IMG/VR virus record: IMGVR_UViG_3300033149_003998
Span: 1 to 33,263 of that record
Source: a virus
DNA: 33,263 nucleotides
Strand: one strand, 5' to 3'
The position numbers and the translations under genes are program-made. Positions 12,801 through 33,263 of the stretch are shown one piece after another. The number at the start of each line of letters is the position of its first letter. Position 1 is the stretch's first letter. The notes beneath the pieces were generated by a model. That model was not told the origin of the DNA, made no database searches, and was given only the letters and a program-made list of their open reading frames with translations.

Positions 12801-12968
12801 TTATAGTTGCTCGGGTTGCAAGAATTTAAAAACTTTACATCTTCTTGCTAATCTTTTTTTCCACTTCCAATCCAGTTTCCCTTCCAGTTCCTTTTCCAAT
12901 TTTTTCTGTGCTTTTACACAATTTGGATAATGCCAACAAGCCAAACAATCTACTATTATTTTACTCAA
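12801..12968 (-). CDS. Small Cys-containing protein with TTG start (55 aa)
   Basis: A 55-residue frame fills an otherwise empty gap after the helicase gene. It starts at TTG 12966-12968, overlapping the helicase stop in TTGAGTAA, 9 bases after AAGGAG; this is the same geometry as the ATGAATAA junctions elsewhere. The product begins with DCLACWHYPNC (Cys 8, 11, 17) and has a basic, Trp-rich second half with Cys 44. It may bind a metal ion. An adjacent in-frame TTG is an alternative start. Family not recognised. Confidence 0.62.
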   Translation of the reverse strand: MSKIIVDCLACWHYPNCVKAQKKLEKELEGKLDWKWKKRLARRCKVFKFLQPEQL

Positions 12969-14307
12969 CAATATCAGCTCCTTCCTCTTCTAAATTAGAA
13001 ATAAACTGATTTTTAAGGTCAATATAAAGCTTGACCTCGCCTGTTTTTCCTTGCCTGTTTTTTCTAATATAACAATACAAAATATTCTTCAATCGCTCAT
13101 AATTTTCAAAATCTTTTTCTTTATCGAGATAATAAAGAGGTCTGAATAACATTAAAACCTTATCAGCATCCTGTTCTATCGCCCCAGATTCTCTTAAATC
13201 TGACAATATAGGTCTTTTGTCCGTTCTATGTTCAACACAACGGTTTAGTTGACTTAAAAGAACGATAGGAATATTCAATTCTTTAGCTAAGGCTTTTAAT
13301 GTTCGTGTAATTGTCTCTATTTCAGCATTTCTTGTTTGTTCCCGTCGGTCTGGTAAAATATAAGATAAATAATCTATATAAACAATATCGATATTATTAT
13401 ATTTTCTCCATTTTCGCATTTTGAAAATCAAATCTGACAATTTAATTCCACCAGAATCCTCAATAAATAGATTCCATGACAAATTATCATATATAGATTT
13501 ATTGATTTCCTGATATTCATTAAATTTTTTATAATTATGTTGTTTTTTCTGGAAAATTATTTCTCTTCTGCTTTTTCCACCTAATAATTTAATTACCCTA
13601 TCCATAATATTTGTTTTTGTCATTTCCAGAGACATAAAACCAACATTTAAGCTACATTCACAATTATTTTTAATAAGATTAATAGTAAACATTGTTTTAC
13701 CCATGCTCGGACGCCCTGCAATAATAATCAAGTCTCCTTTTTCAAATCTAATATATTTGTCAAGTATTAAAAACCCTGTTTTAATAAATTGTTTTTCTTC
13801 TTCTTTTTCTATAATCTCTTTTATCGTATCAAGATACTCTTTTATAACCATTTTAAAACTTTCATTGTCTTCTTTCTGAAAACCAAAATCAGAAATCTCA
13901 GTAAGTTTTTCTGTTATTTCAAAAGCAATTTTTTTAATATTTTCTTTCTCTTTTAATTTCTCCAGGTTTTGAATAAATAAGTCGTATATTTTTCTGGTTT
14001 TCCAATAATAAAATAAACTTTCTAATCTTTTAACAAAAATACATTCAGGAATATAACTCATTTCTATTTTCTCTAACATTCCAGCTAAATCTTCAATTCC
14101 TTTCTTTTTAATACTCTCATCAATAGCACAGTAATCCATTTTGTCATCTTTAGAAAATCTTTTGAAAATAACAAATAAGGTTTTTAGAAGATTATTAAAA
14201 AATAAGTCAGGAAAAAGATTATATTTAATAAATCCTTCTGGATTTTCATATAGGAAACATAGAACTTCAAATTCCAGTTGATCATCATTCATTTTAAAGT
14301 TTTCCAT
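12961..14307 (-). CDS. Replicative DNA helicase, DnaB-like
   Basis: The 448-residue protein is a RecA-fold hexameric helicase. The N-terminal domain (residues about 1-110) is followed by a linker and the ATPase domain: Walker A GRPSMGKT at 198-205, FMSLEMTKTN, Walker B region DIVYIDYLSYILP, then IVLLSQLNR, LSDLRESGAIEQDADKVLML and the C-terminal RKNRQGKTGEV motif carrying the arginine finger. Length matches DnaB. It lies directly after the initiator-like gene, giving an initiator/helicase pair. ATG 14305-14307 follows AAAGGAG. The 3' end overlaps a small gene by 8 bases. Confidence 0.95.
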   Translation of the reverse strand: MENFKMNDDQLEFEVLCFLYENPEGFIKYNLFPDLFFNNLLKTLFVIFKRFSKDDKMDYCAIDESIKKKGIEDLAGMLEKIEMSYIPECIFVKRLESLFYYWKTRKIYDLFIQNLEKLKEKENIKKIAFEITEKLTEISDFGFQKEDNESFKMVIKEYLDTIKEIIEKEEEKQFIKTGFLILDKYIRFEKGDLIIIAGRPSMGKTMFTINLIKNNCECSLNVGFMSLEMTKTNIMDRVIKLLGGKSRREIIFQKKQHNYKKFNEYQEINKSIYDNLSWNLFIEDSGGIKLSDLIFKMRKWRKYNNIDIVYIDYLSYILPDRREQTRNAEIETITRTLKALAKELNIPIVLLSQLNRCVEHRTDKRPILSDLRESGAIEQDADKVLMLFRPLYYLDKEKDFENYERLKNILYCYIRKNRQGKTGEVKLYIDLKNQFISNLEEEGADIVE

Positions 14308-14321
14308 TTTTACACTCCTTT

Positions 14322-15107
14322 CTATAACTCATCAAAAAAACTTTTTTTATCTTTTTCATACTCATCTTCCCAGCCCTTAGCATTTAGCCATGTAGCAGGA
14401 TAAGGGATAAATTGTCCATTGTTTTTAGTCCAGTCTTCACTTTTTTTAGCAATTTCTAAAGAAGACATAATTTTATTAAAGAGGTTTTTGTCTGGTTTGA
14501 TTTTATTCCAGACTTTTTCAGCTTTACCTTTAGCTCTTTTTTTAGGATAAGCTTTCCAGAATTCATTAAAGCGTTGCGCATATATATTATTTTTATTTTT
14601 ATTTACATTTACTTTTTCTTTTTCTTTTTCTTTTGTGTCATTCTTGCACGGATTTTGAACATTTATCGAATTATTGTTAACATTTATTGAATTAATGTTG
14701 ACATTTATTATATTATTGTAATTGGATATATCTATTAAAACATATTCATTTATCGCTTCTACCGCCTTTTTTCGTTTTGCTGCTTCAAAGTATCTTTTTT
14801 GAATACCTCTTGATGTTAGAATTTCGTATTTATCAAACAATTCTTTATTAAAAATATTGCGTACAATTAAAGTATTAATGCAAGCATTTATAGAATTAAT
14901 GTCAACATTAATTTCTTTTTTGATTAAAAGTGTTAAATCATTATTGAATTCTATATAATAACCTTTATTTCTGTAAATATGTTGAAGTAGAACAATCCAG
15001 ACAGCAAGTCCTATTGCCTCATGTTCAATCAAATACATTTTTAAATCATTATCAAAATTAACATCAAGAGGAAAATAATCTATTCCTGGCTTTGTTGTTC
15101 TTGCCAT
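14322..15107 (-). CDS. Replication initiator-like protein (DUF4373 / phage replication family)
   Basis: The 261-residue protein begins MARTTKPGIDYFPLDVNFDN and contains EILTSRGIQKRYFEA, diagnostic of the Lin1244/Lin1753-like N-terminal domain (DUF4373). A low-complexity Asn/Ile/Val linker follows (residues about 125-150). The C-terminal part (FNEFWKAYPKKRAKGKA, ending QFIPYPATWLNAKGWEDE) is typical of phage replication proteins that load DnaB-type helicases. The linker is encoded by tandem 21-bp repeats that may be the origin. I choose ATG 15105-15107; an upstream GTG at 15114-15116 lies too close to the AGGAG site. Confidence 0.85.
   Translation of the reverse strand: MARTTKPGIDYFPLDVNFDNDLKMYLIEHEAIGLAVWIVLLQHIYRNKGYYIEFNNDLTLLIKKEINVDINSINACINTLIVRNIFNKELFDKYEILTSRGIQKRYFEAAKRKKAVEAINEYVLIDISNYNNIINVNINSINVNNNSINVQNPCKNDTKEKEKEKVNVNKNKNNIYAQRFNEFWKAYPKKRAKGKAEKVWNKIKPDKNLFNKIMSSLEIAKKSEDWTKNNGQFIPYPATWLNAKGWEDEYEKDKKSFFDEL
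14655..14718. repeat. Three tandem 21-bp iterons (candidate replication origin)
   Basis: Three direct repeats with exact 21-bp period have cores CATTTATCGAATTATTG, CATTTATTGAATTAATG and CATTTATTATATTATTG, each preceded by (A/G)A. They lie in the initiator gene and encode the heptad SINVNNN and variants. AT-rich DNA lies on both sides. Arrangement recalls lambda-type origins inside the initiator gene; origin activity is inferred. Confidence 0.55.
14881..14914. repeat. Second iteron cluster in the initiator gene
   Basis: A further full unit (CATTTATAGAATTAATG) and a partial one (CATTAATT) with the same 21-bp spacing lie about 165 bp from the main array. They encode INVDINSINACIN. Together with the main array this gives five units in one gene. 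Confidence 0.45.
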
Positions 15108-15112
15108 TATTT

Positions 15113-15337
15113 TCACTCTCCTATCTTTCTATTAACAAAATCCCATAACTCTTCTTCTAATTCTTCAGAACATAAAAATATAAAAATCAATTCAATAAAT
15201 TCGTCTTTTGTTAAATCCCAACCAGCCATACCTCTACTCATTGTAATTCTTAAAGGAATATCTTCTGCAGAATTACTTGAATATAGAAAATCAGCAACCT
15301 CTATTAATCTTCTTAAGATTTTTGTTTTCAGGAACAT
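15113..15337 (-). CDS. Small acidic protein before the initiator gene
   Basis: A 74-residue, mostly helical, acidic protein (MFLKTKILRRLIEVADFLY... ending EELWDFVNRKIGE). Not recognised. It is the first gene after the structured leader and starts at ATG 15335-15337 behind GAGGAGGG. The stop falls just before the initiator start, so the two are likely co-translated. It might be a partner or modulator of the initiator, but only position supports this. Confidence 0.7.
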   Translation of the reverse strand: MFLKTKILRRLIEVADFLYSSNSAEDIPLRITMSRGMAGWDLTKDEFIELIFIFLCSEELEEELWDFVNRKIGE

Positions 15338-15351
15338 ATGAATCCCTCCTC

Positions 15352-15417
15352 AAAAGAAAGCCCGCTGGAGTTGTGAGAGAGAGGCTAAAAGAAAGGATAG
15401 CCTTGACACCAGCGGGC
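15352..15417 (-). terminator. Conditional terminator before the replication genes
   Basis: A 9-bp perfect stem GCCCGCUGG/CCAGCGGGC (15417-15409 with 15368-15360) is followed on the minus strand by UUUCUUUU (15359-15352). The 40-nt loop contains a nested 6-bp hairpin (AGGCUA/UAGCCU). It stands after the nuclease gene and immediately before the ribosome binding site of the replication genes, the position of an attenuator. Confidence 0.6.
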
Positions 15418-15431
15418 ATATTTCTTATAAT
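15403..15431 (+). promoter_or_regulatory. Consensus plus-strand promoter opposing the operon
   Basis: TTGACA (15403-15408), 17-bp spacer, TATAAT (15426-15431): a perfect sigma70-type promoter on the plus strand. It is the only such site I find on the strand that carries no genes. Expected start near 15438, giving RNA antisense to the leader's 5' end and to the nuclease gene. Confidence 0.65.
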
Positions 15432-15464
15432 TAGCATAGTTATACCTCTCTCTCACATTTATAT

Positions 15465-15492
15465 ATTATACATCTTCTTCTCCGTTTGTCAA
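15465..15492 (-). promoter_or_regulatory. Consensus promoter for the replication operon
   Basis: Minus-strand TTGACA (15487-15492), 16-bp spacer, TATAAT (15465-15470), both hexamers perfect. It overlaps the stop codon of the nuclease gene. Expected start near 15458, exactly at the left arm of the long inverted repeat in the leader. Confidence 0.7.
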
Positions 15493-17223
15493 GTTCTTAG
15501 ACAGCTCCAGAGCCGTCTCATAATATTGCTGTTTTTCTTCTTCTGTAAGTACAATCCAATTGTCAAAACCTAATATTCTTCTTACTTCCTTCAATCTATC
15601 TTTCGCACTCCATTCTTTCGGGATTCTAAGCATATCACAGATGTCATCAAGTCTGATTTTTTGATTCTTAAGTTCCTTTGTCTTTTGTATCCTTACAACA
15701 GTTATTTTATCTTCCGCAAGCTGTTTACAATCCTTTTTCTTATTAGCTTTTGCGAGAAATCTACCTGTCTTAATCTCTGTGGCTACCCAGATTTTGGGAT
15801 TTTGAATATCTTTATGCACGAAAAAATTAATTCCCTGAAAACTATATAAATACGCCTTTCCATATTTGCTTTGGAAATAGGGAATTGCTTCAGAATCTGT
15901 TTTAATAAAAAATAGAGGATATTCCGTAATATTTTCCTCTTCATCTCCTGTATTCTTCTGCTCGTTCTTTCCTATAGAAGTATTTTCTTTCTCTGATGTA
16001 GTCTCTGATATCTGTTCAGAAGAGTTCTCTTTAGTTTGCCCTATTTCTATTTGTTCAGTAGAGGTATTTTCTATTTGTTTTATCTCTGCTTTCCCTTCTA
16101 TTTCTTCAGGTACGACATCAATCACATTTTTCTTTTTTATTACTTTACTGCTCATTCGAGCAGGTTTTTTGTACATATCTATTTCAGACAAAATATGTTT
16201 GATCTCCTCTTTAGGATAGCCTTGTTTTTGTAGTAGTTTTTTAATCTTATCAGGTTTAATTTTAACATCTGCTATATCTGTTATGCTATATCTACATTTT
16301 GCCATTTTTAAAATATCTAATACAGGACAAAGTTCATGCTCATAAGCTCCAGGATACTCTTTAAGAATATATCTCCAATCACTGACAACTAATTCATTAT
16401 TATTTTCTCGTAGAATTTCTTTTTGCTTTTCCTGTAGCTCCTTTAGCCGATTATCTATAACAATAGAAATCGGTTTTAATTTCTCTATTTCTTCAAAGAG
16501 CTGTTTCACTTCTGCAGGCGGGTTATAATTTATTGTCTGGACATCGAAATTGAGGGCTTTTTTGTATTCTTCGCACTCATTACGAAGACCGCACCAATTA
16601 CAGAACTTATTGAGCTTCGGTTTGAATTCTTTGTCATTCAGATAAGCTTTTGCAACTTCCGACAACTCTTTTGCAAACTCAAGCAGGTCTTCTCTTTTAT
16701 ACCTCTTTCCATAATACTTGTTTTGTTTTGTGTAATAGAACCCTGCCTCGATGTTAGGATTTTTATATAGGAACAAAGCAGCTAAAGCGTAATATTTAAG
16801 CTGAAAATCATCATCCTGATATCCGCCTGTCTTCCAGTCAATAATCCTGAGTGTGCCGTCTTCCAGAAGATCTACTCTGTCAAATATCCCACGCAAGCCC
16901 CAGACGCCTTTTTCTATCTCTATTTGAAACATGTGTTTGTCGTGCAAAACTGTGTCCTGGTCTTCACTTTCGACACAAATTAAAGTATCAGGATTTAACT
17001 CCACATCTGGTTCTGTTATTATTCCTGCTATTTCATTTAAAACATCTGGTTCAATGTCTGCAGGTAAATCTAAAGTCTTGCTATAATGTGCAAGTGCCTT
17101 GTGTACCTTATTTCCGAAAATACTTGCCTCGCTCTCCTCGAACGGGGCAAAAACACTTTTCGGACACCTCATATATGCCTGAAGTTTTGACTGTGATAAA
17201 TAGGTTACTTTATTATTATTCAT
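15466..17223 (-). CDS. Cas4/AddB-like Fe-S PD-(D/E)XK nuclease with extra C-terminal domain
   Basis: The 585-residue protein is a RecB-family nuclease. Motifs: H41 (GNKVHKAL), RGIFDRVD with D115/D118, and IIDWKTG with D129 and K131. C20 in MRCPKS plus FCNWCGLRNEC (C208, C211, C217) gives the four-Cys 4Fe-4S cluster of Cas4/AddB enzymes. It lies two genes after RecT, so it probably makes the single strands that RecT anneals. Residues about 375-432 are a low-complexity Glu/Thr/Ser linker, and 438-512 are a domain shared with the 17415-17822 product. Start ATG 17221-17223 follows AAAGGAGCTGATAAGA; the frame is open further upstream. Confidence 0.88.
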   Translation of the reverse strand: MNNNKVTYLSQSKLQAYMRCPKSVFAPFEESEASIFGNKVHKALAHYSKTLDLPADIEPDVLNEIAGIITEPDVELNPDTLICVESEDQDTVLHDKHMFQIEIEKGVWGLRGIFDRVDLLEDGTLRIIDWKTGGYQDDDFQLKYYALAALFLYKNPNIEAGFYYTKQNKYYGKRYKREDLLEFAKELSEVAKAYLNDKEFKPKLNKFCNWCGLRNECEEYKKALNFDVQTINYNPPAEVKQLFEEIEKLKPISIVIDNRLKELQEKQKEILRENNNELVVSDWRYILKEYPGAYEHELCPVLDILKMAKCRYSITDIADVKIKPDKIKKLLQKQGYPKEEIKHILSEIDMYKKPARMSSKVIKKKNVIDVVPEEIEGKAEIKQIENTSTEQIEIGQTKENSSEQISETTSEKENTSIGKNEQKNTGDEEENITEYPLFFIKTDSEAIPYFQSKYGKAYLYSFQGINFFVHKDIQNPKIWVATEIKTGRFLAKANKKKDCKQLAEDKITVVRIQKTKELKNQKIRLDDICDMLRIPKEWSAKDRLKEVRRILGFDNWIVLTEEEKQQYYETALELSKNLTNGEEDV

Positions 17224-19312: not shown

Positions 19313-19468
19313 TTATACTCTGACAAATCCATTCCTTATTCCTTCTTTTAGAATCTGTCGCCGCACCCACTCCGACAAATTCACGCTTTCCTTTCTTGCT
19401 AACTTCTTTAGAACTTCCTTTTCCTGCCTGGTCATATAGACCATTATATACTCACTTTTATTTCTCAT
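19313..19468 (-). CDS. Ribbon-helix-helix DNA-binding protein (51 aa)
   Basis: A short gene with a clear ribbon-helix-helix (CopG/MetJ/Arc-type) signature: a strand (EYIMVYMT), helix A (RQEKEVLKKLARKES), a turn (VNLS) and helix B (EWVRRQILKEG). Such proteins bind operators as dimers through the strand. Start ATG 19466-19468 overlaps the upstream TGA and follows AAGGAGGTGAAAAG, an almost perfect Shine-Dalgarno sequence. It is the only recognisable transcription regulator in the genome; the early promoters and the 15.4-kb regulatory region are its obvious candidate targets. Confidence 0.82.
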   Translation of the reverse strand: MRNKSEYIMVYMTRQEKEVLKKLARKESVNLSEWVRRQILKEGIRNGFVRV

Positions 19469-21039: not shown

Positions 21040-21068
21040 ATTATAACAGATTTTATAACAGATGTCAA
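21040..21068 (-). promoter_or_regulatory. Early promoter P1 (consensus, extended -10)
   Basis: TTGACA (21063-21068), 17-bp spacer, TATAAT (21040-21045), with TG one base before the -10 box. The spacer and -10 contain two direct copies of TCTGTTATAA (21053-21062 and 21041-21050 as complement), a possible operator. Start expected near 21033. Confidence 0.85.
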
Positions 21069-21151
21069 TACTTTTTTGAAATTTTTTTAAATTTTTTTTA
21101 TCTATTCAAAAAACCTGTATTTTCAGGCTTTCCCGACATCTGCTATAAAAT
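21050..21151. repeat. 17-bp inverted repeat at the early promoter
   Basis: GACATCTGCTATAAAAT on the plus strand (21135-21151) and GACATCTGTTATAAAAT on the minus strand (21050-21066) match at 16 of 17 bases. One arm covers the P1 spacer and the edge of the -35 box; the other lies between P1 and P2. In RNA from P2 the arms could form a long hairpin; in DNA they could be paired operators. Confidence 0.65.
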
Positions 21152-21177
21152 TTTCAAAAAGTAATTTTATTCTATAT

Positions 21178-21206
21178 AATATATAATATCTTATAATATA
21201 TGTCAA
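21178..21206 (-). promoter_or_regulatory. Early promoter P2
   Basis: TTGACA (21201-21206), 17-bp spacer, TATATT (21178-21183, 5 of 6 bases), preceded by an A/T-rich tract (complement of TTATTTTTTTTTA). It lies 138 bp upstream of P1 and reads in the same direction. Confidence 0.7.
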
Positions 21207-21526
21207 GTATTCTCTTATTTTTTTTTACAAAAAATATCCTCTTGCAATATTCATGCCAGGATTTTAGATAGTAAATCTCTAAAAAGCCTTGATTTTATTG
21301 AATTTTCATGGCTCAAATATTCGCTTGTTATGATGTTTTTTATGACATTTAGATAGTTTAATATAGACTTCTTAAAAAAAATGCCATATTGAGGAAATAT
21401 ATATATCGAAATTTCGCACAGAAATAGGGTAGATTTTTGAGTTCTGACTTCGACCTATATATTGATATATATCGAACAAAAAAAATGCTTTTATAGGGAA
21501 ATATGAGCTTCGATTTTAAACAGCAT
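21207..21526. other. AT-rich non-coding region between late and early operons
   Basis: About 320 bp without a credible gene on either strand; only frames of about ten codons occur. It contains ATATATATCGAA twice (21399-21410, 21465-21476), the 10-bp palindrome CGAAATTTCG (21407-21416), TTCGA/TCGAA arms around 21449-21476, and two copies of TTTAGATAGT. Candidate roles are UP elements, operators or a second origin. Confidence 0.6.
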
Positions 21527-31951: not shown

Positions 31952-33263
31952 TTATTGTTTATTAATGAATATTGCCTTAAAATCAATGAAGTAGCTTACA
32001 AATTCGCTATCTTCATTATTTGCGCCCTCTGTTATGCTGCCAGAAATTAGCTCTGCCAAATAAAACAAGTTCCCTTGACTTCTCCAATCGTTTATAATAG
32101 CATCTCTCGCATAGGCAAGCAAGACAATTGCGCCGTGCTTGTTATCAAGTAGATTGATATCATCAAAAACGCCTTGTTCAAAGTCGTAAATGTCTTTTAC
32201 AAAAGCCTCAAGTGTAAATGTTATGTCTATCTCCTGCCCGCCTATGAATTGCGCTCTGACTGAAGTATTTATATCCCTCAAAACAATTGCAGGTGTATAA
32301 ACTTCGTGCCCTTCATAAACGATATTGTTTTTATTTACATAAGTTGTTAAAGTACTGTCATTTTTAAGTATATCAAGAATGTCCTGTTGTAGCTTTGTTA
32401 AGATATTCGCATTTATGATAGGTGTAAAAGCTTTGTCGTATCCAGTTATTGTTATCTCATTTGAAAAATCGCTTTTTACGCCGTCAAGGTTTTCGGCCTG
32501 TACTTTTATCAAGTTTTGCCCGTTCTGAATATCCACTTTTTTGAATAGAAAAGTTGTTTGTCCTGCTGATTTATAGATAGCTTCTTTTTCTACGCTGTTG
32601 TTGTAGAGCCTTATAATCTGTTGTGTGCTTCCACAAGTGCCATATATATCAAAATTTGGTTTTTTATAGAAAAATAAATCTTGACTTTGCGTAATAATGA
32701 TAGGAGTGTCAGGAACTGATATTTGCCAATCCACTATCGCCTCTATATTTTTTATGCTTATGCCTTCATCTTTTCTAACCGCATAAGGATTGCCATATTC
32801 AATTTTAAATTCCAATAAATCATTTTTAGCAAAAGAGGCATCTATAAGCTCGCCTGCTGTTAAATCATACTCTATCCAGTCCCCGCCATTTTTTCTCCAA
32901 AATAATCTTGTACTTACTCTATCCCCACCGTTGTCTATTTTGCCATCTATAACAAATTTTTTTAACGTTAGTGATTCTTGCACTGTATAACTTCCGATTG
33001 CCCTATGGTCTTCTGTTGTAGGAAAAAATAAATAATGACTCCAGCCAGAAATTGCAATATAATCACTCACTGGAGAATATTTCATTGATAATTCTTCTGT
33101 ATTACTACTGCCCCCCTTTTGGTTATAAAGAAAAGCTTTATCGTCATGTCCGAAAACAGTGCCCCAGCCTTCAAGTGTTCTAATTGCATTTTTATCTTCA
33201 CCAAAAAGCTTTGCAACAAGTATTCTCTGAATATCCTGATTTGCATAATAACCACTATAAATT
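31952..33263 (-). CDS. Beta-propeller/Ig-like/tail-terminator-like fusion, C-terminal part (continues at 1-852)
   Basis: Residues 285-702 of the protein that begins at base 852; 33209-33263 duplicate 1-55. Residues about 326-445 form a beta-rich region (ISGWSHYLFFPTTEDHRAIG), 448-541 an Ig-like domain (FDIYGTCGSTQQIIRLYNNS, GQNLIKVQAENLDG), and 545-702 a domain with ILTKLQQDILDILKN and TPAIVLRDINTSVRAQFIGG that resembles tail terminators in layout. Ending just before the tail tube gene supports that role. An internal ATG (33083-33085) has no good ribosome binding site, so the whole frame is probably one chain. Confidence 0.72.
   Translation of the reverse strand, partial: IYSGYYANQDIQRILVAKLFGEDKNAIRTLEGWGTVFGHDDKAFLYNQKGGSSNTEELSMKYSPVSDYIAISGWSHYLFFPTTEDHRAIGSYTVQESLTLKKFVIDGKIDNGGDRVSTRLFWRKNGGDWIEYDLTAGELIDASFAKNDLLEFKIEYGNPYAVRKDEGISIKNIEAIVDWQISVPDTPIIITQSQDLFFYKKPNFDIYGTCGSTQQIIRLYNNSVEKEAIYKSAGQTTFLFKKVDIQNGQNLIKVQAENLDGVKSDFSNEITITGYDKAFTPIINANILTKLQQDILDILKNDSTLTTYVNKNNIVYEGHEVYTPAIVLRDINTSVRAQFIGGQEIDITFTLEAFVKDIYDFEQGVFDDINLLDNKHGAIVLLAYARDAIINDWRSQGNLFYLAELISGSITEGANNEDSEFVSYFIDFKAIFINKQ
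33209..33263. repeat. Right copy of the 55-bp terminal overlap
   Basis: Identical to bases 1-55; marks the circular junction. Confidence 0.95.

Follow-up and report, generated by a model that had tools for sequence, protein, structure and literature searches.

A possible antisense-RNA-triggered transcription attenuator in front of the replication genes of a tailed phage

Antisense attenuation is a classic form of control for plasmid initiator genes and is already known from the satellite phage P4. In the plasmids pT181 and pIP501, an antisense RNA pairs with the leader of the rep gene, and as a result a terminator forms immediately before the start of the initiator gene (PMC5703833, PMC4981023). 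The antisense RNA is 87 nt long in pT181 and 136 nt in pIP501, and the leader region of pIP501 is 329 bp (PMC5703833, PMC4981023). The CI RNA of P4 is an antisense-acting RNA that causes premature termination upstream of the phage replication genes, is processed from a transcript of the same strand and pairs with seqA and seqC (cited in PMC4825925). In IS10, RNA-IN and RNA-OUT are produced from opposed promoters and their 5' ends are complementary over 35 nt, which results in multicopy inhibition; RNA-OUT is a structured 69-nt RNA and the control works by blocking ribosome binding (PMC5006887).

The window, that is, the whole stretch of DNA analysed here, is IMG/VR record IMGVR_UViG_3300033149_003998, one virus contig of 33,263 bp from a tailed phage. 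A 55-bp direct repeat is common to both ends (1-55 and 33209-33263; on the minus strand 33263-33209 equals 55-1), and these identical ends show that the contig is a complete circular phage genome with a size of about 33.2 kb. Every called gene lies on the minus strand, and those that could be named include tail and lysis genes, RecT, a PD-(D/E)XK exonuclease, a Lin1244-type initiator, DnaB, RuvC, YopX, a methylase, terminase, portal and a fused protease-capsid gene. The phage proteins that were scanned included no recognisable integrase or classical repressor, and the phage is apparently virulent. The closest terminases, those of Thermoanaerobacterium phage THSA-485A and two metagenome contigs, are 53% identical; amino-acid composition gives a rough estimate of the growth optimum near 50 C, and the host is probably a low-GC Firmicute. 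The early region is opened, after a non-coding gap of 550 bp, by two more strong promoters (21040-21210, minus strand; TTGACA-17-TATATT at 21206 and a 12/12 match at 21068), and it encodes a 51-aa ribbon-helix-helix protein of NikA/CopG-like type (19313-19468, minus strand), which by analogy with plasmid CopG/CopR is a possible partner regulator.

The replication operon contains the following features, listed from its far end towards its start:

12961-14307, minus strand: DnaB-type replicative helicase (PF03796, 3.8e-72)
14322-15116, minus strand: replication initiator (Lin1244_N, PF14297; phrog_2562)
14658-14719: array of three AT-rich direct repeats of 21 bp within the initiator gene, candidate iterons of an origin
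14863-14909: second 21-bp repeat array, also inside the initiator gene
15113-15337, minus strand: orf74 (74 aa), first gene of the operon, with its Shine-Dalgarno (SD) sequence GAGGAGGG at 15350-15343

No relatives of orf74 were found. The repeats within the initiator gene resemble a lambda-O/iteron-type origin and are a candidate for one, and because the 21-bp iterons are located there, it is likely that the origin lies within the operon that is under control. The leader as a replication origin is disfavoured, since the iterons sit in the initiator gene instead.

Facing promoters and an interlocked leader

The element covers about 130 bp just ahead of the replication genes, and the leader RNA has a length of about 120 nt. 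Its features are, in the direction of transcription of the operon and followed by those of the two overlapping products:

15465-15492, minus strand: promoter P-, TTGACA 15492-15487, 16-bp spacer, TATAAT 15470-15465, predicted start near 15458
15445-15457, minus strand: segment A, UGUGAGAGAGAGG, leader nt 2-14, inside the 21-nt RNA overlap and SD-like for the leader ORF
15403-15431, plus strand: promoter P+, TTGACA 15403-15408, 17-bp spacer, TATAAT 15426-15431, predicted start near 15438
15409-15417, minus strand: segment B, GCCCGCUGG, 5' arm of the terminator
15382-15403, minus strand: nested hairpin AGGCUA/UAGCCU, 6 bp (15403-15398 / 15387-15382), within the B:B' loop
15372-15384, minus strand: segment A', CCUCUCUCUCACA, pairs with A
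15360-15368, minus strand: segment B', CCAGCGGGC, 3' arm of the terminator
15352-15359, minus strand: U-rich tail of the terminator, UUUCUUUU
15291-15437, minus strand: candidate leader ORF of 48 codons, putatively coding, ATG at 15437, 7 nt after the GAGG of segment A
15438-15535, plus strand: predicted antisense RNA from P+, about 100 nt, 3' end weakly predicted

The minus strand runs from the end of the exonuclease gene through P-, the start near 15458, A, the ATG of the leader ORF (nt 22) and B to the nested hairpin, A', B', UUUCUUUU, the SD GAGGAGGG, orf74, the initiator and dnaB.

Both promoters are of the sigma-70 type with 12/12 matches. The initial annotation had described them as perfect and opposed, and base by base this proved correct at the same coordinates. 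P- overlaps the last part of the exonuclease gene, whose stop codon is at 15468-15466, and points toward the replication operon, and P+ is directed against it, with segment B inside its spacer. A scan of the whole genome returned only three 12/12 promoters (minus strand 21068 and 15492, plus strand 15403), when 0.03 are expected on both strands under a dinucleotide model. P+ is the sole perfect plus-strand promoter of the genome, and it has no gene to serve because all called genes are on the other strand.

Segments A and A' form a perfect 13-bp helix (15445-15457 / 15372-15384), which exceeds in length every other perfect inverted repeat of the 33 kb with a span under 130 and has arms of GA-rich simple sequence. 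B and B' pair over 9 bp, eight of which are G-C pairs, followed by TTTCTTTT. This is the only strong GC-rich terminator of the genome on either strand (at least 8 bp, at least 6 GC and at least 6 of 8 T), it has a 40-nt loop containing A', and it ends right before the ribosome site of the operon, the SD of orf74. The nested hairpin shares 3 nt with A' and is seen in the fold of the B form. The repeat, the terminator stem with its U-rich tail, the 6-bp hairpin and the order A-B-A'-B' had all been read from the sequence before, and each was recovered at the same position. When the 128-bp region was shuffled 3000 times with dinucleotides preserved, none of the shuffles (0/3000) contained a helix of 13 bp, a terminator resembling B:B' or a pair of interlocked helices of 9 bp. 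The A and B motifs are present as two inverted copies each, with no good matches elsewhere in the genome. If the leader does act as an RNA attenuator, its layout would be compact, as almost every base of the 130 bp would double as promoter and RNA element. Each of these sequence elements, with its position and rarity, is a direct observation, as is a switch in the nested folds of the leader.

Folds were calculated for the growing transcript as nested structures, with pseudoknots forbidden by construction. In these folds A is essentially free until A' has been made, after which A:A' prevails (nt 86-103). At nt 99-103, the nested fold gives A:A' a probability of 0.96-0.98 and B:B' at most 0.02 when A is free, and B:B' a probability of 1.0 when A is blocked. 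When the U-tract is complete at nt 107-109, the nested equilibrium between the two helices is near 0.4/0.6 even with A free, and therefore a model of antisense control depends on A:A' forming first. Because nested folding excludes pseudoknots, the exclusivity of the two helices is built into the calculation; they are interlocked with no base in common and both could form together, in which case termination would be independent of A. The possible H-type pseudoknot would have linkers of 27, 24 and 3 nt, and the 3 nt between A' and B' are a small correction to the initial annotation. The 3-nt overlap of the nested hairpin with A' makes a small direct conflict between the two forms. As the nested MFE of the whole leader has a z of only -1.3, it is the particular interlocked helices that stand out, rather than overall stability.

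The first 55 nt of the antisense RNA are predicted to be unstructured (its 5' region folds at 0 kcal/mol), and a weak hairpin (-6.6 kcal/mol) followed by a U-run near 15499-15540, about 100 nt from the start, is the candidate plus-strand terminator. Complementarity to the leader is restricted to 15438-15458, that is, to the first 21 nt of the leader containing A, which agrees with the previously proposed overlap of about 20 nt corresponding nearly to this segment. The predicted energy of the 21-nt duplex is -34.8 kcal/mol, and together with the unstructured 5' end of the antisense RNA this would be favourable for fast pairing.

Search for related leaders

Related leaders were searched for through proteins (exonuclease, DnaB, terminase, initiator and orf74) and through DNA, using the B:B' pattern, the opposed-promoter pattern and blastn with the leader as query against phage and plasmid sequences. 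Among the records open to searching, neither IMG/VR nor the phages, the plasmids or 790 sampled genomes yielded a homologous leader. The 790 genomes represent two classes and were reached through Paenibacillus and Clostridia loci, and their matches were mostly to generic -35/-10 sequence. None of the 83 loci with related initiators has opposed promoters upstream of the gene, and a long-loop terminator like B:B' is missing from all 98 loci with opposed perfect promoters. Loci that matched the B pattern were unrelated to this leader.

A leader with promoter and terminator was present upstream of one of the 83 related initiators, on contig L302 (3660-3817). There a promoter and a 10-bp long-loop terminator with T6 precede a Lin1244 initiator gene, and there is no antisense promoter. 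According to its sequence this could be a second attenuator-like leader in the Lin1244 initiator family.

An intergenic region of Geobacillus phage GR1 (OK896991.1 37477-37521; L367 2497-2569) gave a 45-bp blastn match with E = 0.006. Like the window, it has TATAAT-N33-ATTATA with equal spacing of the -10 boxes and an identical TATAAATGTGAGAGAGAG, and in its non-coding region two extended -10 promoters face each other as a palindrome (TGTGATATAATT in either direction). Unlike in the window, however, about 430 bp separate the region from the next gene, which encodes a sigma factor, and there is no counterpart of A' or B:B'. The GR1 region is a lead rather than a demonstrated relative.

In unrelated phage contigs, perfect promoters placed face to face, whose -10 boxes have a GC-rich hairpin precisely between them, were recurrent (L178 2279-2373, L191, L196, L198, L215, L217, L222, L235, L237, L254-L256, L258, L261 and L269). 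In some of these, for example L178, the hairpin is followed by a U-run, and RNAs of about 30 nt are thus predicted.

Proposed transcription attenuation and its alternatives

We give roughly even chances to the view that the element is an antisense-RNA-triggered transcription attenuator of the phage replication operon with copy-number feedback. Antisense-controlled attenuation fits the anatomy because a terminator precedes the SD, a competing helix lies upstream and the opposed P+ is geneless; in addition, the P+ RNA starts as a copy of A', and the operon encodes DnaB and an initiator with iterons. Polymerase starting from P- would make a leader in which the 5' segment A stays unpaired until A' is transcribed. 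If A is free, A:A' would close ahead of the emergence of B' and B would be trapped in the A:A' loop, giving read-through into orf74, initiator and dnaB. The RNA from P+ would accumulate in proportion to genome copies, and its 5' end, equal to A', would capture A during the approximately 55 nt of transcription that precede A'. With A captured A:A' would be lost, B:B' would form and transcription would stop at the U-tract just upstream of the SD. P+ and P- might also physically exclude each other.

We infer for this model that both promoters fire, that pairing of the two RNAs is fast enough, that B:B' is kept from forming by A:A' and that copy number feeds back on the operon. In our judgement the terminator is quite probably conditional, and the antisense control is the less well supported part of the model. 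The most specific form, in which a tailed phage limits its own copy number by means of a P+ RNA that mimics A' and thereby frees a terminator blocked by an interlocked helix of pseudoknot topology, is put forward only tentatively; if true, an ordinary tailed phage would sense its copy number in replicon style. Antisense-controlled attenuation had been suggested in the initial annotation, and the anatomy, the nested-fold switch and the initiator/DnaB operon give this suggestion partial support.

The start sites of P- and P+ face each other 20 bp apart, so that the polymerase footprints overlap, and firing of P- would itself occlude P+, which counts against the antisense model. So do the weak plus-strand terminator, the near balance of the two helices at nt 107-109, and the searches, in which neither a homologous leader that could show covariation nor opposed promoters ahead of the 83 related initiators came up. 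The facing start sites would suit a transcriptional interference switch in which P+ and P- are mutually exclusive and the choice between them falls to a DNA-binding protein of the phage or the host, the plus RNA being a by-product and the terminator fixing the level of read-through. The ribbon-helix-helix/CopG-like protein encoded by the phage could be such a protein, and opposed perfect promoters are also found in other phage contigs without an attenuator. However, interference leaves the 13-bp copy A', the interlocking of B:B' and the RNA overlap covering A all unexplained, and we consider it unlikely. A shared operator would be expected to recur, but the other promoters of the phage have no further A or B copies, and the shared-operator model was rejected.

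Segment A is also the candidate SD of the leader ORF, a point missed in the initial annotation, with GAGG at 7 nt from the ATG. The frame, which overlaps orf74 out of frame, is open through B, A' and B', and the 21-nt antisense overlap ends one base before the ATG. The element might accordingly be read as a leader-peptide attenuator, in which ribosomes on the 48-codon ORF would mask B, A' and B' and so keep transcription from terminating, and A:A' or the antisense RNA would hide the SD and let B:B' form, translation acting as the sensor with or without the antisense RNA. Against this, no homolog of the leader ORF was found and the SD match is GAGG only, making this reading improbable. It predicts that A:A' promotes termination, which is the opposite of the topological model.

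The recombination block of RecT and the PD-(D/E)XK exonuclease is located directly upstream of the replication operon in the same direction, and B:B' could be a plain terminator of its transcripts, with P- driving the replication operon by partial read-through, A:A' serving as a 5' stabilising hairpin and P+ being unimportant. The initiator leader of contig L302, with its promoter and long-loop terminator but no antisense promoter, would be consistent with such an arrangement. B:B' is, however, downstream of P- and would stop the P- transcripts too, a chance 12/12 P+ at this place is very unlikely, and a 40-nt loop with A' is unusual for a simple terminator; the plain arrangement therefore appears quite improbable. 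An invertible promoter, in which recombination between A and A' would turn P+ towards the replication genes and destroy B:B', has in its favour only the geometry of P+ between perfect 13-bp arms, and is very improbable as the proteins scanned included no recognisable invertase or integrase, the repeat is GA-rich simple sequence and the operon is already served by P-.

Comparison with described systems

The antisense attenuator proposed here has closest analogues in pT181 and pIP501, and the similarity to these plasmids suggested in the initial annotation holds for the logic. As in them, the leader of an initiator operon has an intrinsic terminator right before the start (here B:B' and TTTCTTTT, then the SD), an antisense promoter is opposed to the leader promoter with convergent transcription (here the 12/12 P+, identified from sequence), and pairing of a short antisense RNA would let the terminator form. 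The similarity does not extend to the layout. In pT181 and pIP501 the antisense promoter sits within the leader or in its downstream part, and the RNA pairs along its whole length, whereas here only the first ~21 nt pair (15438-15458), at the 5' end of the leader, and complementarity of the full antisense RNA to the internal leader is lacking. The competing helices of the plasmids share a strand, whereas A:A' and B:B' are interlocked with no common base, and A:A' may pre-empt the terminator although it overlaps only the nested hairpin, by 3 nt. The leader is also shorter (about 120 nt vs the 329-bp region in pIP501), and it belongs to a tailed-phage replicon instead of a plasmid.

The element would resemble CI RNA immunity of P4 in that an antisense-acting RNA would stop transcription into phage replication genes, and it differs in having a separate opposing promoter and the A and B motifs only as two inverted copies each. 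No similarity to P4 CI RNA was detected by sequence or in Rfam, and no Rfam family matched above the gathering score. With IS10 the element has in common the opposed promoters and complementarity at the mRNA 5' end (~21 nt here vs 35 nt), and multicopy inhibition would be the shared logic. In contrast to IS10, the target is followed by an intrinsic terminator, and no structure is predicted for the 5' end of the antisense RNA; about 90 nt separate the overlap from the SD of orf74 downstream, and the overlap covers only the candidate SD of the leader ORF, and the ribosome block of IS10 has thus no equivalent at orf74. Because both the plasmid layout and the IS10 type of ribosome block differ from what was found here, we regard the element as a variant that would work like pT181, pIP501 and P4 CI RNA rather than as a member of these groups.
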